Source: Candidatus Liberimonas magnetica
GTDB lineage: Bacteria > Elusimicrobiota > Endomicrobiia > Endomicrobiales > JAFGIL01
Assembly: GCA_020523885.1 (NCBI GenBank)
Contig: JAJAPY010000001.1
Location: 62,001-126,000 of the forward strand
Direction: 5' to 3'
DNA length: 64,000 nt
In this document: piece by piece, positions 49,580 through 56,146 of the stretch
Position numbering within the stretch: position 1 is the first letter of the stretch
Layout: each line of letters opens with the position of its first letter
The notes under the pieces: generated by a model
Database searches by the model: none
What the model saw: the letters and a program-made list of their open reading frames with translations, nothing else
What the model was told of the DNA's origin: nothing
Program-made: the position numbers and the translations under genes

Positions 49580-50224
49580 ATGAAGAAATTGATTCTGGCT
49601 TTGGATATCTATGAAGAAAAAAAAGCCTTGGATATGGTAAAAGCCCTCTCTGAATATGTAGATATATTCAAAGTCGGGCCTATACTTTTTTTAAAAAGCG
49701 GGCCTTCGATAGTTGGAAAGATAAAGAAGCTTAATAAAGAAGTTTTCCTTGACCTTAAATTCCACGATATTCCCCAGACAGTAAAAAGAGCGGTTCAATC
49801 TGCTGCTGATTTGGGAGTTTACAGCCTGACTCTTCATTCAAGCGGTGGCAAAGATATGATAGCCGAGGCGTCAAGCATTCAGAACAGGCCGAAACTCTGG
49901 GCTGTAACCGTTCTTACAAGCCAGGAAACAAAACCAGAAAAAGTTGTTGAACTTGCTATACTTGCCAAAGAAAGTGGGGCCGACGGTGTGATAGCCTCAC
50001 CTCTTGAGATAGGGCTAATCAAGAAAGAATGCGGCAGAGAATTTACCGTTGTTACCCCGGGTATCAGGATTGCAAATGCAAATGATGACCAGAAAAGAGT
50101 GGCTGCTCCGTCGTCAGCGATAAAAGCCGGAGCAGATTTCATAGTGGTCGGACGCCCTATAATAGAAGCGGAAAATCCGAAAGAAGCGGCAAAGAAAATA
50201 TATGAAGAAATTTCTAAACTCTAA
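49580..50224 (+). CDS. pyrF: Orotidine-5'-phosphate decarboxylase
   Basis: The 214-residue TIM barrel has LALDIYEE, FKVGP and the catalytic DLKFHDIPQTV (about residues 57-67), then the phosphate-binding end TPGIR and VVGRPI. It makes UMP from OMP, the last de novo step. There is no Shine-Dalgarno before the ATG; TATAAT is directly adjacent, which is too close to act as a -10 for this start. The last codons run into a heptamer array. Confidence 0.95.
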   Translation: MKKLILALDIYEEKKALDMVKALSEYVDIFKVGPILFLKSGPSIVGKIKKLNKEVFLDLKFHDIPQTVKRAVQSAADLGVYSLTLHSSGGKDMIAEASSIQNRPKLWAVTVLTSQETKPEKVVELAILAKESGADGVIASPLEIGLIKKECGREFTVVTPGIRIANANDDQKRVAAPSSAIKAGADFIVVGRPIIEAENPKEAAKKIYEEISKL

Positions 50225-50317
50225 ACCCTAAATCCTAAATAAATCCAAAATTCAAAATCTAAAGTTTTGAGTTTTAAAATTATTTAGAGTTTATTGTTTC
50301 GAGTTTAGGGTTTAGGA
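50214..50317. repeat. Inverted heptamer array between pyrF and pyrE
   Basis: Left arm 50,214-50,241 has four units of CTAAAYY type (CTAAACT, CTAAACC, CTAAATC, CTAAATA) and begins in the last codons of pyrF. Right arm 50,283-50,317 has five units (TTTAGAG, TTTATTG, TTTCGAG, TTTAGGG, TTTAGGA). The arms are complementary. The last unit runs into GG and so creates the AGGAGG ribosome site of pyrE. Confidence 0.85.
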
Positions 50318-50324
50318 GGTTAGT

Positions 50325-50900
50325 TTGGAACCCAAAGAAATAAAAACATTATTTGAAGAAGAAAAAGCGTTATTGTCCGGCCATTTTTTACTATCGAGCG
50401 GGCTTCATTCGGATACCTATTTCCAGTCTGCTCTGATAATGCAGTATCCGGAACTTGCAGAGATGCTTGCAATTGAGATTGCAAAAAAGCTTGAAAGTTT
50501 AAAATCGTCTATAGACCTTGTAATATCTCCGGCACTCGGCGGAATTATTATAGGTTACGAGTTAGGCAGAGTTTTAGATAAGAGAGCGATCTTTTGTGAA
50601 AGAGTGGATTGTAAATTAACTTTACGCCGGGGTTTTAATATTTTACAGCATGAAAACTGTCTGTTGGTGGAAGACGTTATCACTACCGGAAAATCCACAA
50701 ATGAAGTAATAGAAGTGGTTAAATCTACGGGAAGTAAGGTAATAGGTGTTGCCTCTCTGGTAGACAGAAGCGGCGGGAAGGCTGATTTTGGAGTGCCTAA
50801 GTTCTCGCTTCTTGAAATAGAGTTAAAATGTTATACACCGGAAGAATGCCCTATGTGCAAAAAAGGGATCCCGTTCGTAAAACCGGGAAGCAGGAAATAA
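50325..50900 (+). CDS. pyrE: Orotate phosphoribosyltransferase
   Basis: The 191-residue PRTase has LSSGLHSDTYFQ at the N-terminus, SPALGGIIIGYE, and the PRPP motif LVEDVITTGKST. The C-terminus adds EECPMCKKGIP, a CxxC-containing tail typical of one subgroup of PyrE. It joins orotate to PRPP, giving OMP. The start is TTG at 50,325 with AGGAGG five bases ahead; no ATG fits. Confidence 0.95.
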   Translation: MEPKEIKTLFEEEKALLSGHFLLSSGLHSDTYFQSALIMQYPELAEMLAIEIAKKLESLKSSIDLVISPALGGIIIGYELGRVLDKRAIFCERVDCKLTLRRGFNILQHENCLLVEDVITTGKSTNEVIEVVKSTGSKVIGVASLVDRSGGKADFGVPKFSLLEIELKCYTPEECPMCKKGIPFVKPGSRK

Positions 50901-50902
50901 TA

Positions 50903-50985
50903 TATAGCGTTTAGCGTACAGCGTAGAGCGTAGAGGATTGTAAAGTTTTTCTATACGCTATCCGCTATCCGCTCTACGCTAAAAA
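50903..50985. repeat. Inverted heptamer array between pyrE and purM
   Basis: Left arm 50,903-50,937: TATAGCG, TTTAGCG, TACAGCG, TAGAGCG, TAGAGGA. Right arm 50,951-50,985: CTATACG, CTATCCG, CTATCCG, CTCTACG, CTAAAAA. The arms are complementary with a 13-base loop. The right arm runs directly into GAGGG, the ribosome site of purM. Confidence 0.9.
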
Positions 50986-50994
50986 GAGGGTAAT

Positions 50995-51948
50995 ATGACA
51001 TTAACTTATGCAAAAGCCGGAGTGAATATCGATGCAGGTAATGAACTTGTAAGAAGAATAAAAAAGATGGTGCCCGGCATCGGGGGGTTTTCCGGGCTCT
51101 TCCCGCTGGAGAATACAAAATATTACCTCGTCAGCTCTACCGATGGTGTGGGTACAAAACTGAAAGTTGCGGGCCTTATAAATAAGCACGATACGATAGG
51201 CATAGACCTCGTTGCCATGAATGTCAATGACCTGGTGTGCTGCGGGGCGAAGCCTCTTTTCTTCCTTGACTACTTTGCGTGCGGCAAATTAAATGTCGGT
51301 CTTGCAGAAACAGTAATTAAAGGAATTATAGACGGCTGTAAGATATCAGGTAGCGCGCTTCTCGGAGGCGAAACAGCCGAAATGCCGGGTTTTTATTCCG
51401 GTAAAGAGTATGACCTTGCCGGTTTTGCGGTCGGAGTCGTAGAGAAAGGAAAAGAAATATCAGGCAAAAATATAAAAGCCAGAGATGTGCTTATAGGGAT
51501 TCCGTCAAGCGGGCCTCATTCAAACGGGTATTCGCTCATAAGAAAGGTGTTTTCTAAAAAAGCCATTAAAAAATACGGGAAATACCTCTTGGCACCGACA
51601 CGGATTTATGTCAAGGAGATCTTAAATCTGCTGAAGAGGGAAAGGAAAAGTATTTCTGCGATCGCACACATTACCGGAGGTGGATTCTACGATAACATTG
51701 AAAGGCTCCTGCCGGACGACTGCCATGTTGTGGTAAACAAAAGTTATTGGAGCGTTCCAGATATTTTTCATATAATCCAGAATAAAGGAGCTGTACCCGA
51801 GACAGAAATGTACCGTACTTTCAATATGGGTATAGGGATGGTTGTAATAGCCAGAGAAAACAGGGCTGGTGCTGTACAGAAATTGCTGAAAGGCTCACAG
51901 ATAATAGGTTATGTCAAAAAAGGTAAAAAAGGGGTATCTGTTGTCTAA
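50995..51948 (+). CDS. purM: Phosphoribosylformylglycinamidine cyclo-ligase (AIR synthetase)
   Basis: The 317-residue protein has the PurM ATP/phosphate loops STDGVGTKLKVA, GIDLVAMNVNDL, GGETAEMPGFY and GIPSSGPHSNGYSL, and a C-terminal HITGGGF. It closes the imidazole ring to AIR. GAGGG precedes the ATG. The 3' end overlaps the start of purN. Confidence 0.96.
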   Translation: MTLTYAKAGVNIDAGNELVRRIKKMVPGIGGFSGLFPLENTKYYLVSSTDGVGTKLKVAGLINKHDTIGIDLVAMNVNDLVCCGAKPLFFLDYFACGKLNVGLAETVIKGIIDGCKISGSALLGGETAEMPGFYSGKEYDLAGFAVGVVEKGKEISGKNIKARDVLIGIPSSGPHSNGYSLIRKVFSKKAIKKYGKYLLAPTRIYVKEILNLLKRERKSISAIAHITGGGFYDNIERLLPDDCHVVVNKSYWSVPDIFHIIQNKGAVPETEMYRTFNMGIGMVVIARENRAGAVQKLLKGSQIIGYVKKGKKGVSVV

Positions 51949-52540
51949 AAAGAGGATAGGAGTTTTAATTTCCGGCGGGGGGACAAACCTGCAGGCGATA
52001 ATCGATGCCTGTAAAAACGGAATTTTAAAAGATATTGCTGAAGTTTCGTTAGTCTTATCAAGCCGTTTGGATGCCTACGGGTTTGAACGCGCCAAAAACA
52101 GCTGTATAGACGGTGTCTTTATCGACCGTAAAGAGTTTAAGGACGATATTTCTTATTGCAAAAAATATATAGATGAACTTAAAAAATACAGGGTTGACCT
52201 GGTTTGCCTTGCAGGATTTATGAGGAAGCTTGAACCTGATTTTATTAAAGCTTTTTCAGGCAAAATATTAAATATCCATCCTGCACTACTTCCGAAATTC
52301 GGTGGAAAAGGCATGTACGGCCATTATGTCCATGAAGCGGTCATAGAGGCCAAGGAAAAAGAGTCCGGCGCCACAGTGCACATGGTAGATGAAGAATACG
52401 ACCATGGCAGAATAATAATACAAAAAAAAATCCCGGTGCTTGCAACTGATACATGTGAATCTCTGGCTAAAAGAGTGCTTGAGATAGAGCATGAGATATA
52501 CCCGGAAGCAATAAAAATAGTTATAAGCGGTAAGTTGTAA
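51941..52540 (+). CDS. purN: Phosphoribosylglycinamide formyltransferase (GART)
   Basis: The 199-residue formyltransferase has IGVLISGGGTNLQAII at the N-terminus, LAGFMRKL, the catalytic triad region NIHPALLPKF and HMVDEEYDHG. It formylates GAR with 10-formyl-THF. An in-frame ATG at 51,911 adds ten residues, but AAGGGG six bases ahead of the TTG at 51,941 and the family's usual start just before the first strand favour 51,941. The gene overlaps purM by 8 bases. Its last codons are part of a heptamer array. Confidence 0.93.
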   Translation: MSKKRIGVLISGGGTNLQAIIDACKNGILKDIAEVSLVLSSRLDAYGFERAKNSCIDGVFIDRKEFKDDISYCKKYIDELKKYRVDLVCLAGFMRKLEPDFIKAFSGKILNIHPALLPKFGGKGMYGHYVHEAVIEAKEKESGATVHMVDEEYDHGRIIIQKKIPVLATDTCESLAKRVLEIEHEIYPEAIKIVISGKL

Positions 52541-52551
52541 GCTGTAAGAAA
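52524..52551. repeat. Heptamer array, left arm before the S23 gene
   Basis: TAAGCGG, TAAGTTG, TAAGCTG, TAAGAAA, four units in register, starting inside the final codons of purN. The inverse arm lies at 52,956-52,990, on the other side of the S23-protein gene. Confidence 0.85.
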
Positions 52552-52585
52552 GATAAAAGGCAGAACATTAAGAAAAGGCCAAGAG

Positions 52586-52939
52586 ATGGCAATATTTAAG
52601 AATCTAAAAGTATGGGAAAAAGCACATCAACTTGTATTGTCGATATATGTAATTACAAAAACATTTCCTGAAGAGGAAAAATTCGGATTAATTTCCCAGA
52701 TAAGAAGGGCTGCGAGTTCTGTTCCAACCAATATAGTTGAAGGATGCAAGAAAAATAGCAACAGAGAATTTATCCATTTTCTTAATATAGCAGAAACCTC
52801 TCTTGAGGAAACAAAGTATCATCTTATTTTAAGCAGAGATTTGAAATATATTTCCACAACGGATACGGAAGTTATTTATCGAGAATGCGAAGAGATAGGA
52901 AAGATGATTTCCGGACTTAAAAAGAAACTTAAAGCATAA
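52586..52939 (+). CDS. Four-helix-bundle protein of the 23S rRNA intervening-sequence (S23/IVP) family
   Basis: The 117-residue all-helical protein has the family pattern: FKNLKVWEKAHQLVLSIY, then FPEEEKFGLISQIRRAASSVPTNIVEG and a SLEETKYHL helix. Such proteins were first seen in intervening sequences of 23S rRNA genes and are common as single genes of unknown function. Here the gene is not in an rRNA; it sits between purN and purB, bracketed by inverted heptamer arms. It is probably a mobile or recently inserted passenger. The ribosome site is weak. Confidence 0.9.
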   Translation: MAIFKNLKVWEKAHQLVLSIYVITKTFPEEEKFGLISQIRRAASSVPTNIVEGCKKNSNREFIHFLNIAETSLEETKYHLILSRDLKYISTTDTEVIYRECEEIGKMISGLKKKLKA

Positions 52940-52955
52940 TTAATGCAAGGTTTTT

Positions 52956-52990
52956 CTTACAGCTTAAAACTTATAGCTTATAGCTTTTGG
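52956..52990. repeat. Heptamer array, right arm before purB
   Basis: CTTACAG, CTTAAAA, CTTATAG, CTTATAG, CTTTTGG, five units that are the reverse complement of the arm at 52,524-52,551. The last unit joins AGG to form GGAGG, the ribosome site of purB. Confidence 0.85.
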
Positions 52991-52997
52991 AGGTCTT

Positions 52998-54302
52998 ATG
53001 ATTCCTCGTTATTCCCGCAAAGAGATGTCTGATATCTGGTCTGAGGAAAACAAGTTTAATAAAATGCTTGAAGTCGAAATACTTGCATGCGAGGCTATGT
53101 CCAAAAAAGGAATTATTCCGAAAGCTGACGTAAACCAGATAAGAAAAAAAGCTTCTGTTGATATTAAGCGCATAAATAAGATAGAGGAAACCGTAAAGCA
53201 TGATGTAATAGCTTTTCTAACTCAGGTCGGAGAAAAGGTAGGCCCCAGTTCAAGGTATATACACCTTGGAATGACCTCTTCGGATGTGCTTGATACAGCT
53301 CTTTCAGTGCAGATGAAAGAATCCTGTGGTTTGCTGCTGAAAGGAGCAAAAGAACTTGCCTCAACAATAAAAAAACTCGCTTTAAAATACAAAAATACTC
53401 CGATGATAGGAAGGACTCACGGGATACATGCTGAACCGATGACATTCGGGCTCAAGATGGCATCCTGGTACTCGGAAATGAAGCGTGTAATAGCTCTTCT
53501 TGAAAATACAAAAGAAACAATAAGTTACGGCAATATCTCGGGAGCGGTTGGAACGTTCGCTCATTTAAGCCCGGATGTTGAGAGTTATGTTTGCAGAAAG
53601 ATCGGGCTTAAGCCTGAGCCTGTTTCAACGCAAGTGATACCGCGCGACAGGCATGCGATCTATCTTTGCAGGATCGCTTTAATAGGCGCTTCGCTGGAGC
53701 GGTTTGCCACTGAAATAAGGCATTTGCAAAGGACAGAAGTCATGGAAGCGGAGGAGCCGTTTACAAAGGGACAAAAAGGCTCAAGTGCTATGCCTCATAA
53801 AAGAAATCCTATACTTTCAGAGAATATCTGCGGTTTGGCAAGGCTGTTAAGAGGTTATGCAGTAGCAGGCATGGAAAACGTTGCTTTGTGGCATGAAAGG
53901 GATATAAGCCACTCTTCAGCCGAGCGTGTTGCCCTGGCTGATGCCTCAATTTTGCTTGATTTCATGTTTGCAAGGATGAATAAAATACTTTCAGGGCTGG
54001 TGGTTTATCCTCAAAACATGGCACGGAATCTAAAGACATTCCAGGATGCGATATTTTCGGGTACTCTATTGCTTGCGCTTGTAAAAAAAGGCTTGACCAG
54101 GGAAAAATCATACGATATAGTCCAAAAAGCGGCTTTCCAGGCGAGGGAAAAAAATATCAGCCTTGAAAAATGTGCACTTACAGAAAAGAATATTTCAAAC
54201 CTTCTAAAGCCTCAAGAGATCAAGGCATCTTTTGACATAAAATCCCACTTTAAACATATACCGTACATCTTTAGTAGAGTTTTTCAAGATAACAATGGTT
54301 GA
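52998..54302 (+). CDS. purB: Adenylosuccinate lyase
   Basis: The 434-residue protein of the fumarase/aspartase superfamily has HLGMTSSDVLDT, GRTHGIHAEPMTFG with the catalytic His, TEVMEAEEPF and the signature loop GSSAMPHKRNP. It acts twice in purine synthesis, on SAICAR and on adenylosuccinate. GGAGG precedes the ATG. The stop codon overlaps the -35 box of the tRNA-Val promoter. Confidence 0.96.
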   Translation: MIPRYSRKEMSDIWSEENKFNKMLEVEILACEAMSKKGIIPKADVNQIRKKASVDIKRINKIEETVKHDVIAFLTQVGEKVGPSSRYIHLGMTSSDVLDTALSVQMKESCGLLLKGAKELASTIKKLALKYKNTPMIGRTHGIHAEPMTFGLKMASWYSEMKRVIALLENTKETISYGNISGAVGTFAHLSPDVESYVCRKIGLKPEPVSTQVIPRDRHAIYLCRIALIGASLERFATEIRHLQRTEVMEAEEPFTKGQKGSSAMPHKRNPILSENICGLARLLRGYAVAGMENVALWHERDISHSSAERVALADASILLDFMFARMNKILSGLVVYPQNMARNLKTFQDAIFSGTLLLALVKKGLTREKSYDIVQKAAFQAREKNISLEKCALTEKNISNLLKPQEIKASFDIKSHFKHIPYIFSRVFQDNNG

Positions 54303-54327
54303 AATATAAGGTGCAAAATGGTATTAT
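54299..54327 (+). promoter_or_regulatory. Promoter of tRNA-Val
   Basis: TTGAAA, 17 bases, TATTAT, ending 15 bases before the tRNA. Confidence 0.6.
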
Positions 54328-54342
54328 AATAAATCATTTTTT

Positions 54343-54417
54343 GGGCAGTTAGCTCAGCGGAAGAGCGCTCGCCTTACACGCGAGTGGCCGCAGGTTCAAA
54401 TCCTGCACTGCCCACCA
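54343..54417 (+). tRNA. tRNA-Val (anticodon TAC)
   Basis: The acceptor GGGCAGT pairs with ACTGCCC. The anticodon arm is CTCGC-CTTACAC-GCGAG with anticodon TAC. The T-arm contains GGTTCAAATC. The discriminator is A and CCA is encoded, unlike the tRNA-Arg and tRNA-Asp nearby. Confidence 0.96.
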
Positions 54418-54421
54418 TTTA

Positions 54422-54608
54422 CAGTGAACAGTAACCAGTGACCAGTTACCAACAACTGCATTAGAAATCAGTAAGAACACAAAAAATTTGACATACTGTA
54501 GTAATTCAGTGTATAATTATAACCCATTAAATAGATTTTTGCTCTTTTGAATTTTGTAGTTTGATGTTAACTGTTTACTGATTACTGGTCACTGGTAACT
54601 GGTAACTG
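54422..54608. repeat. Inverted heptamer array between tRNA-Val and tRNA-Asp
   Basis: Left arm 54,422-54,456: CAGTGAA, CAGTAAC, CAGTGAC, CAGTTAC, CAACAAC. Right arm 54,567-54,608: TTAACTG, TTTACTG, ATTACTG, GTCACTG, GTAACTG, GTAACTG. The arms are complementary and separated by 110 AT-rich bases with no gene. Confidence 0.9.
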
Positions 54609-54613
54609 TAAAA

Positions 54614-54689
54614 GGGGATGTGGTGTAGCCTGGTTTAACACGCTGCCCTGTCAAGGCAGAGATCGCGGGTTCAAATCCCGTCGTCCCCG
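54614..54689 (+). tRNA. tRNA-Asp (anticodon GTC)
   Basis: The acceptor GGGGATG pairs with CGTCCCC (one G-T). The anticodon arm is CTGCC-CTGTCAA-GGCAG with anticodon GTC. The T-arm contains GGTTCAAATCCC. The discriminator is G, as expected for Asp; CCA is not encoded. Its 3' 17 bases are part of a 98-bp direct repeat. Confidence 0.96.
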
Positions 54690-54770
54690 TTTTACTTCCC
54701 TGATAAGGGATTTGAAGCCGACCCGAAGCGCTGCCCTGTGGCAGAAGAAGCGAGGGCGGCCGGTTTCGGA
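54673..54770. repeat. 98-bp direct repeat, copy 1 (includes tRNA-Asp 3' end)
   Basis: Identical to 54,799-54,896 (offset 126). Its first 17 bases are the 3' end of tRNA-Asp (AAATCCCGTCGTCCCCG). The rest contains hairpins CCCT-GATA-AGGG and CTGCC-CTGT-GGCAG, and CGCTGCCCTGT, also found in the tRNA anticodon arm. The 28 bases between copies hold another hairpin (ACCCGC-GAA-GCGGGT). Confidence 0.95.
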
Positions 54771-54798
54771 TGAACCCGCGAAGCGGGTGAGGGAGAAA

Positions 54799-54896
54799 AA
54801 ATCCCGTCGTCCCCGTTTTACTTCCCTGATAAGGGATTTGAAGCCGACCCGAAGCGCTGCCCTGTGGCAGAAGAAGCGAGGGCGGCCGGTTTCGGA
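54799..54896. repeat. 98-bp direct repeat, copy 2
   Basis: Second copy. It carries a detached tRNA-Asp 3' end without the rest of the tRNA, as at the far end of an integrated element that uses a tRNA as its attachment site, or as left by tandem duplication. Confidence 0.95.
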
Positions 54897-54932
54897 ATAA
54901 AAAGTACAACCCCATCAAAATATAGCACTCCC

Positions 54933-55727
54933 ATGAATTACAATACCCCAAAAAACTTGTCACCTTTCACAAGAACAGCTATTGAAGCAGCTTTAGCCGG
55001 CGGAAAAATACTTAAGAAATATTTCAACAAAAATATAAAAGTTGATTACAAGGGCGAAATAGACCCTGTGACTATCGCAGACAAGAAAAGCCAGAAAGCT
55101 ATACTTGAGATAATAAAACAAAGGTTTCCCGGGCATACGACGCTTGGCGAAGAAGACAAGGAGAAAGCAATTTGTTCGGAATATTGCTGGATCATAGACC
55201 CGCTTGACGGTACGGTCAATTTTATACACGGTATGGAGATTTTCTCTGTCTCTATCGGGCTCAGCCATAATGGAAATATAATATCCGGCGTAGTATATGC
55301 ACCCCGTCTAAAGGAGCTTTTTGTAGCAGAAAAAGGCAAAGGAGCTTTTTTAAACGGTAAAAGAATAAGAGTTTCAAAGATAAATAGCCTGGTAAGGTCA
55401 CTTGTAGTTACGGGGTTTCCTTATTACGTGCATAAAAGTTCAAAACGGGTATTAAAAAATTTTTCCGGAATTTTAACTAAAGTTCAGGGACTGCGGAGGC
55501 TTGGTTCTGCTGCAATTGACCTTTCTTATGTTGCACGCGGAAAGTATGAAGCTTTTTGGGAAGAAGGCCTTAAACCGTGGGATGTGGCTGCCGGCTCTCT
55601 TATAGTCCGGGAAGCAGGCGGAAAAGTTACCGATTATGCAAATGGGAAAGGATATCTTTTAGGGGAAAATATTCTGGCAACAAACGGCAAAACACATAAA
55701 AAGATGCTAAAATTGATTAAACGATAA
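54933..55727 (+). CDS. suhB: Inositol-monophosphatase-family phosphatase
   Basis: From the ATG at 54,933 the protein has 264 residues and all metal-site motifs of the family: PVTIADKKSQ, LGEED, IDPLDGTVNF and, near the C-terminus, KPWDVAAGSLIVREAGG. It hydrolyses inositol phosphates or related sugar phosphates; the bacterial homologue SuhB also acts in transcription antitermination. An in-frame ATG at 54,864 would add 23 residues encoded by the 98-bp repeat, which are unlike the family and probably not translated. The symbol is by family only. Confidence 0.9.
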   Translation: MNYNTPKNLSPFTRTAIEAALAGGKILKKYFNKNIKVDYKGEIDPVTIADKKSQKAILEIIKQRFPGHTTLGEEDKEKAICSEYCWIIDPLDGTVNFIHGMEIFSVSIGLSHNGNIISGVVYAPRLKELFVAEKGKGAFLNGKRIRVSKINSLVRSLVVTGFPYYVHKSSKRVLKNFSGILTKVQGLRRLGSAAIDLSYVARGKYEAFWEEGLKPWDVAAGSLIVREAGGKVTDYANGKGYLLGENILATNGKTHKKMLKLIKR

Positions 55728-56146
55728 AAAACAGGGATAAGGGCTAAGGTGTAAAGGGGTAAACGAGAAACAAGGTTTTTATTGCACATTACCACTCCCG
55801 TTTTTTAAAATTTTTAGAAAAAGATTGCTCATAATGTATTTTTTAATAAAATATAGTTGAAAAATGAAAGTATTCTTGTTATTGCTGTTTTCATGATAAT
55901 AACATTCTTAAGGAAAAAGTATCTTGTTTCCTATCTATAAATCTGGAAAACCCAAAAAGTAGATTTTTTAAACCTTTCCTTTATTCAATACCCACACTAA
56001 ATACAAAACAACAAGATTTTGCATATATTTTACGTTATTTTCATAAAATATACTTGAATTTACTATATAATCTCATTATAGTATTAATAATATATATATA
56101 TTGATTAAAGTCTAATCTTGCCTTTCAGTAATTAATTTTTAATTTT
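55728..56146. other. AT-rich spacer before giant gene 2, with one heptamer array
   Basis: 419 bases, strongly AT-rich, no gene seen. At 55,734-55,762 there is a short array GGGATAA, GGGCTAA, GGTGTAA, AGGGGTAA without a clear inverse arm. A TATAAT lies at 56,066-56,071 but no good -35 stands 16-18 bases before it. There is no Shine-Dalgarno just before the ATG at 56,147. Confidence 0.4.

Follow-up and report, generated by a model that had tools for sequence, protein, structure and literature searches.

Heptamer arrays in the spacers of Candidatus Liberimonas magnetica: probable inverted arms of small mobile elements, some carrying an S23 gene

In a 64,000-nucleotide stretch of the genome of Candidatus Liberimonas magnetica (the window; G000:C1:62001-126000 in our labelling), successive spacers of the pur/pyr gene cluster and its tRNA tail contain arrays of 7-bp units. 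Why would neighbouring spacers share one strict period and yet each use its own heptamer? The preliminary description of this DNA proposed a process that makes 7-bp units locally. Our analysis indicates instead that the arrays probably form the inverted arms at the ends of small mobile elements. These comprise elements that carry a gene for an S23 protein and S23-less derivatives resembling miniature inverted-repeat transposable elements (MITEs), all free-standing kin of the intervening sequence (IVS) of 23S rRNA genes. We favour a family of mobile repeats because the heptamer families are dispersed, because the elements occur as discrete insertions with corresponding empty sites and because one class carries S23. 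Kinship with the rRNA IVS is suggested by that of Coxiella, which has variable heptamers ahead of S23p.

Heptamer arrays in the window and across the genome

To score the arrays, the best period-7 run in each spacer was compared with 2000 dinucleotide shuffles of the same spacer. Four of the five arrays originally described stood far above the shuffles. The pyrF-pyrE (50213-50240) and pyrE-purM (50905-50935) arrays each scored 15, the array between tRNA-Val and tRNA-Asp (54565-54608) scored 22 and the right arm beside purB (52956-52986) scored 12, all with 0/2000 shuffles as good; the left arm at the purN end (52530-52548) scored 9 (5/2000). Periods 5, 6, 8, 9 and 10 scored 1-5 in these spacers. 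The fifth array (55733-55749) was marginal, with a score of 7 that 10/2000 shuffles reached and that period 8 tied. No partner arm was found for it by eye, and its TAAGGNN units were found again elsewhere, for instance at C1:140416. Complementary arms were seen in the first four arrays, in agreement with the preliminary description, and two arrays do begin in the last codons of the preceding gene: the stop codons of pyrF and purN end within them, at 50224 and 52540. The TAAGCTG arms, however, had been taken for a single spacer array, whereas they enclose an intact S23 gene of 117 aa (52586-52939).

The source genome (G000; 3.39 Mb in 29 contigs, 98% complete) was scanned over 2.0 Mb reassembled from stretches, of which about 10% is spacer. 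Genes were called by a simple hexamer-scored open reading frame (ORF) method that is crude, yet recovered the pur/pyr genes of the window. Counting windows of 28 nucleotides with at least 22 matches at a given lag, for lags 4 to 20, we found 58 windows at lag 7 in spacers and 9 in genes. The other lags gave 0-4 windows each in spacers, except the harmonic 14 with 17. The enrichment in spacers that the preliminary description proposed to look for is thus present, and so is its link to arm complementarity. A finer scan of the same 2.0 Mb found 129 arrays, 113 of them in spacers; 89 of these 113 have an inverted partner within 600 bp and 6 a direct one, against 23 in a mismatched-spacer control.

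The units themselves are not unrelated local inventions, as had been supposed. Grouped by eye, they form about ten recurrent families dispersed across the genome (AGCGNNN, CAGTNAN, TGCAAAA-like, AGACNAC, TAAGNNN, TAAANNN, AACTCNG, GGTARAN, ACGAAGG and GAGTNNT), with about four fixed and three variable bases per unit, and their members are often homologous copies with shared cores. The pyrE-purM element, for example, has whole-element copies elsewhere in the genome at 74-84% identity. Of 74 elements delimited, 69 have loops of 11-64 nt, two have loops of 113 and 119 nt, and three have loops of 392-429 nt that hold S23. One arm class can enclose different interiors. S23 is among the interiors found within TGCAAAA, TAAG and CAGT arms. 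Otherwise, TGCAAAA arms are seen around a short loop or around a 57-nt core that has two small hairpins, TAAG arms around short loops, and CAGT arms around 12 or 113 nt. AGCG arms hold short loops in this genome and S23 in relatives (L197, L207). The CAGT class of the tRNA-Val/tRNA-Asp element likewise flanks the S23 genes L003 and L005.

The TGCAAAA-armed family (G000:C1:55791-55914 and about 26 similar loci) was also read for the structure of its 57-nt core. The stems of the two hairpins vary and, by eye, their pairing is kept. RNAalifold gave no structure for this family, probably owing to gapped hairpin columns, so that covariation of the internal hairpins rests on the reading by eye.

S23 genes between the arms

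The protein encoded between the TAAG arms in the window (P0001) matches PF05635 with 144 bits and TIGR02436 with an E value of 1.7e-40, as well as the structures PDB 2gsc (E 1.8e-17) and 2rld (E 6.2e-8). The source genome has six S23 genes, all between period-7 arms of different families (five clearly, L002 weakly). With P0001 as the sole query, which biases the set toward its relatives, we found 54 homologues in Chloroflexota, Bacteroidota, Cyanobacteria, Desulfobacterota, Acidobacteriota, Verrucomicrobiota and others, and none in phages; an alignment of six S23 members was too diverse. Period-7 arrays lie upstream of 26 of the 54, downstream of 26 and on both sides of 18. Other periods occur at 0-3 on one side and at 0-1 on both, and control places 2 kb away gave 1/108. 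Alignment of the arms reveals them at many homologues that the automatic score missed. The two arms of an S23 element consist of the same class of units in reverse-complementary orientation, with a similarity of 0.70 compared with 0.45 in direct reading and 0.47 between elements, and on the sense strand of S23 the AG-rich arm is usually the 5' one (41/53).

The presence of S23 also goes with array density. We counted arrays in the 2.0 Mb of G000, in 200 kb each of G014, G012, G004 and G017, and in 100 kb of E. coli K-12. Per 200 kb, the S23-bearing genomes have 12.9 (G000), 9 (G004) and 7 (G014) arrays, whereas none was found in the 200-kb samples of the S23-less relatives G012 and G017, nor in the 100 kb of E. 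coli. In contigs of other phyla that bear S23, the 232 kb lying more than 600 bp away from the gene contain 35 period-7 arrays and 0-6 arrays of other periods. S23 is patchy within the phylum (84/285 genomes). In close pairs of S23 genes, dN lies well below dS (0.024/0.237, 0.053/0.453 and 0.039/0.552, a ratio of about 0.05-0.2), and S23 is therefore kept by purifying selection.

Table 1. Heptamer elements and associated features in the window
Feature	Position	Strand	Basis or remark
S23-less element, TAAACCC heptamers, arms 50213-50240 and about 50283-50316	50213..50318		starts in last pyrF codons
S23-less element, AGCGNNN heptamers, arms 50905-50935 and 50951-50981	50905..50981		dispersed family member
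S23 element, left (5') arm, TAAGNNN heptamers, contains purN stop codon	52519..52548	+	array test
S23/23S rRNA IVP four-helix-bundle gene, 117 aa, element cargo	52586..52939	+	PF05635, TIGR02436, PDB matches
S23 element, right (3') arm, complementary CTTANNN heptamers, directly ahead of purB	52956..52986	+	array test
S23-less element, tRNA-Val/tRNA-Asp, CAGTNAN heptamers, arms 54421-54451 and 54565-54608	54421..54608		array test
Putative sigma-70-type promoter, TTGACA-18-TATAAT, upstream of tRNA-Asp, in loop of CAGT element	54488..54517	+	sequence
Single arm of TAAGGNN units, probably decayed, marginal	55733..55765		score 7, 10/2000 shuffles

Judged by its sequence, the CAGT element upstream of tRNA-Asp may carry a promoter (Table 1). 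Beyond it, at 54689-54895, a segment that takes in the 3' end of tRNA-Asp and some 80 bp of the DNA following it is present twice in tandem. A single ORF of 11,579 aa (4751-39490) takes up more than half of the window.

Filled and empty sites

If the arrays belong to mobile elements, orthologous sites should be found with and without them. The pyrF-pyrE spacer is 0-15 bp long in G002, G017, G024 and G013, and the pyrE-purM site is nearly empty in G017 and G013. At the purN-purB site, G002 and G004 have S23 with TAAG arms, and the site is empty in G005 and G007. The S23 proteins of G002 and G004 are 62-64% identical to P0001 and group with it at 85% support, so this insertion looks old.

Base-level evidence for insertion comes from cyanobacterial plasmids. 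Three of these (L259, L260, L261) have the empty site AAAAAGTAATTAACAAAT. The filled site of a Trichormus plasmid (L252) reads AAAAAGTAAT, then the element, GTAAT and TAACAAAT, which is a 5-bp target duplication. L253 carries this insertion too, its left arm being shorter by two units. This 14-bp difference, together with a 7-bp difference between L254 and L255, shows that unit number changes locally. The same plasmid site holds a decayed copy in L262 and an S23-less hairpin in L267. As the three empty plasmids, about 98% identical to the filled ones, are closer to them than L267 is, repeated insertion or precise loss is a possible history of this site. The element of L258, located between cas10 and cmr3, is missing from the relative L263. 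S23 elements were seen within two plasmid CRISPR gene clusters, at L258 2486-2842 (cas10/cmr3) and L270 1501-1860 (cas6/cas4).

The idea of a local unit-making process is partly supported: unit number does change locally, but the arrays are parts of discrete insertions that are missing from orthologous sites.

The arrays could also be conserved regulatory sites that act in translation, mRNA stability or termination, evolve where they stand and do not move. A regulatory role of this kind has been suggested for the STRR and TAACTGA repeats discussed below. Their placement fits this: 88 of 98 array spacers lie between co-directional genes and 1 between divergent genes, where the background of spacers of at least 60 bp has 56 divergent among 838. 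Right arms can provide the ribosome-binding region of the next gene, as in the pyrF-pyrE element, whose right arm supplies the AGGAGG ahead of pyrE. Predicted RNA folds are strong relative to shuffles, with z scores of -6.4 for the pyrF-pyrE element, -3.6 for pyrE-purM and -4.2 for tRNA-Val/tRNA-Asp. Most orthologous spacers compared within the order have no array, however, the same families occur in many unrelated spacers, and comparable elements are found on plasmids. We therefore consider immobile sites unlikely as the explanation.

Movement, unit length and the remaining alternatives

A complete mobile element would be about 430-490 bp long and consist of a 5' arm, the S23/IVP four-helix-bundle gene and a 3' arm of complementary units, each unit being a degenerate tandem repeat of about four fixed and three variable bases. 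Most copies in the source genome would have lost S23 and kept the arms around either a structured core or a short loop, standing to the complete element as MITEs do to transposons. The element probably inserts as a whole, most often where the stop of one gene meets the start of a co-directional neighbour. Its RNA is predicted to fold there as a hairpin, and the arms would then gain or lose whole units. Since the element encodes no protein besides S23, movement would require a recombinase supplied in trans.

One source of such help could be a retroelement, in which the arms and S23 would be the RNA and the Avd-like partner of a trans-acting reverse transcriptase. P0001 has a match (E 3.2e-13) to the Avd model of diversity-generating retroelements, and a likeness between PF05635 and Avd is described in PMC10053308. 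At 49.9 bits the match is below the cut-off of 80, so P0001 is a relative of Avd and not a member. The reverse transcriptase domain RVT_1 had no match in the 98% complete G000, the genome searched, which sets the elements apart from a diversity-generating retroelement and makes this route improbable.

Unit length offers a further way to separate the explanations. S23 genes in part of the order have arms of 8-nt units (L186-L189, L191, L192, L194, and L193 by reading), and one S23 element, L185 (538-852), has 10-nt units of the GAACGACAGG type in both arms. Periods 6 and 9 were flagged at L152, L150 and L151 and are not relied on; L150 and L151 look like mixtures of 7 and 8 on reading. When mapped on a tree of 79 S23 proteins, the 8-nt label requires 5 changes compared with a mean of 8.7 after shuffling (0/500 as low). 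Two genomes hold both lengths, G014 (8 in L191, 7 in L202) and G019 (8 in L192, 7 in L200), and in each the two kinds of element go with their own S23 clade. In the host family of G014 and G019, eight 8-nt and four 7-nt elements split fully by clade (exact p 0.002, with relatives treated as independent). Arm motif also correlates with S23 similarity (Mantel r 0.32, 0/2000, shared ancestry not removed). Unit length (7, 8 or 10) thus tracks the S23 clade and not the host.

Most likely, the S23 protein binds the arm units, with the arms folded in DNA or RNA, and oligomers of S23 binding repeated units would fix the unit length. Going further, S23 rings might act as a molecular ruler, each clade binding and maintaining its own unit length and driving or licensing movement by a mechanism that draws on no known transposase or reverse transcriptase carried by the element; this we put forward only tentatively.

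Alternatively, the host polymerase could duplicate 7-nt stretches of spacer by slippage, with fold-back copying producing the inverted arms and S23 nearby by chance. An idea of this type is attributed to Mrazek et al. 2007 (in PMC4679880). The whole-unit changes in L252/L253 and L254/L255, and those among Coxiella strains (PMC4990558), are what slippage would give. It is contradicted by the two unit lengths in the single hosts G014 and G019, with different S23 clades, and further by the period of 10 in both arms of L185, by the absence of arrays from the samples of S23-less relatives, by the dispersed homologous copies with shared cores and by the presence or absence of whole elements at sites. 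Slippage is accordingly very unlikely to account for the arrays. An origin as repetitive extragenic palindromic (REP) or bacterial interspersed mosaic elements (BIMEs), moved by Y1 transposases akin to REP-associated tyrosine transposases (RAYTs), would suit the many-copy intergenic palindromes, the two inverted hairpins of the TGCAAAA core and the eight Y1 genes of the source genome, but is just as implausible, as S23 rather than Y1 lies inside the arms, the 3 kb around each of three Y1 genes examined hold no period-7 array, and at least one Y1 gene (G000:C15:114-1115) has its own flanking inverted pair with CAATAGTTTAGCCCTGACCCCAA, unrelated to the heptamers. REPs as commonly described are not known to have period-7 arms.

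Several observations weigh against mobile S23 elements as the source of the arrays. A clean target duplication was found at one site only among those compared at base level, and at L256 and L249 the element replaces a few bases at a gene end. About a third of S23 loci have no clear array by the automatic score, the density comparison covers six genomes, mostly through samples of 100-200 kb, and the Mantel and tree tests leave shared ancestry in. Neither RVT_1 nor a candidate recombinase linked to the elements was found in G000, where Y1 genes were checked.

Relation to known repeats

The closest known system is the 23S rRNA IVS. In Coxiella burnetii, GACAGAT heptamers that vary in number between strains precede the start of S23p, and RNase III cuts the IVS (PMC4990558). 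Both kinds of element have S23/IVP as sole cargo, a length of about 430 bp, an inverted stem and heptamers near the S23 start, and the IVS too is suspected of being selfish. The window element has such a stem around its ORF and heptamers adjoining the S23 start. It lies outside any 23S rRNA gene, in the purN-purB spacer, and no rRNA was found in the window at Rfam gathering thresholds. Unlike the IVS, the elements described here are multi-copy, occupy spacers of protein and tRNA genes, have S23-less derivatives and in some cases use 8- or 10-nt units.

The likeness to the heptanucleotide short tandemly repeated repetitive (STRR) sequences of cyanobacteria (Mazel et al. 1990, cited in PMC2670836), remarked on in the preliminary description, holds in form: both are degenerate tandem 7-bp units, intergenic and hairpin-forming, between or beside co-transcribed genes. 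STRR sequences are described as gene-less in the literature searched, whereas the present elements include S23, and the S23 genes examined on cyanobacterial plasmids carry arms of comparable, STRR-like heptamers. The TAACTGA repeats of Beggiatoaceae, Cyanobacteria and Bacteroidetes (PMC4679880) are likewise heptamer arrays of intergenic DNA with a patchy distribution and suspected mobility, and some of them extend over the end of the gene upstream. They are reported as nearly all direct repeats of a single heptamer, unlike the inverted arms and many heptamers seen here, and S23 appears nowhere in the text of that paper.

Like MITEs, the S23-less elements are short and gene-less with inverted ends and empty sites, and apparently arose when a gene-bearing element lost its interior; gene-bearing relatives share their arm classes (AGCG: L197, L207). 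The 5-bp duplication at one site stands beside small replacements at two others. They differ from MITEs in having ends built of short units in tandem, where MITEs have fixed terminal repeats, and in having no known transposase, S23 not being known as one.

In the open literature searched, heptamers and S23 were found together only in the Coxiella IVS paper (PMC4990558), without generalisation. The origin of the heptamer repeats in bacterial spacers, which were described in 1990, has not been agreed, and S23/IVP proteins, though widespread, have a function known only for the Avd relatives. Joining the two, with the repeats as arms and S23 as cargo and probable arm-binder, gives both puzzles a testable explanation. 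If correct, it would predict which genomes hold such arrays and offer a unit-length code, and would point to a widespread but little-known kind of mobile element, able to spread through operons with no obvious recombinase.

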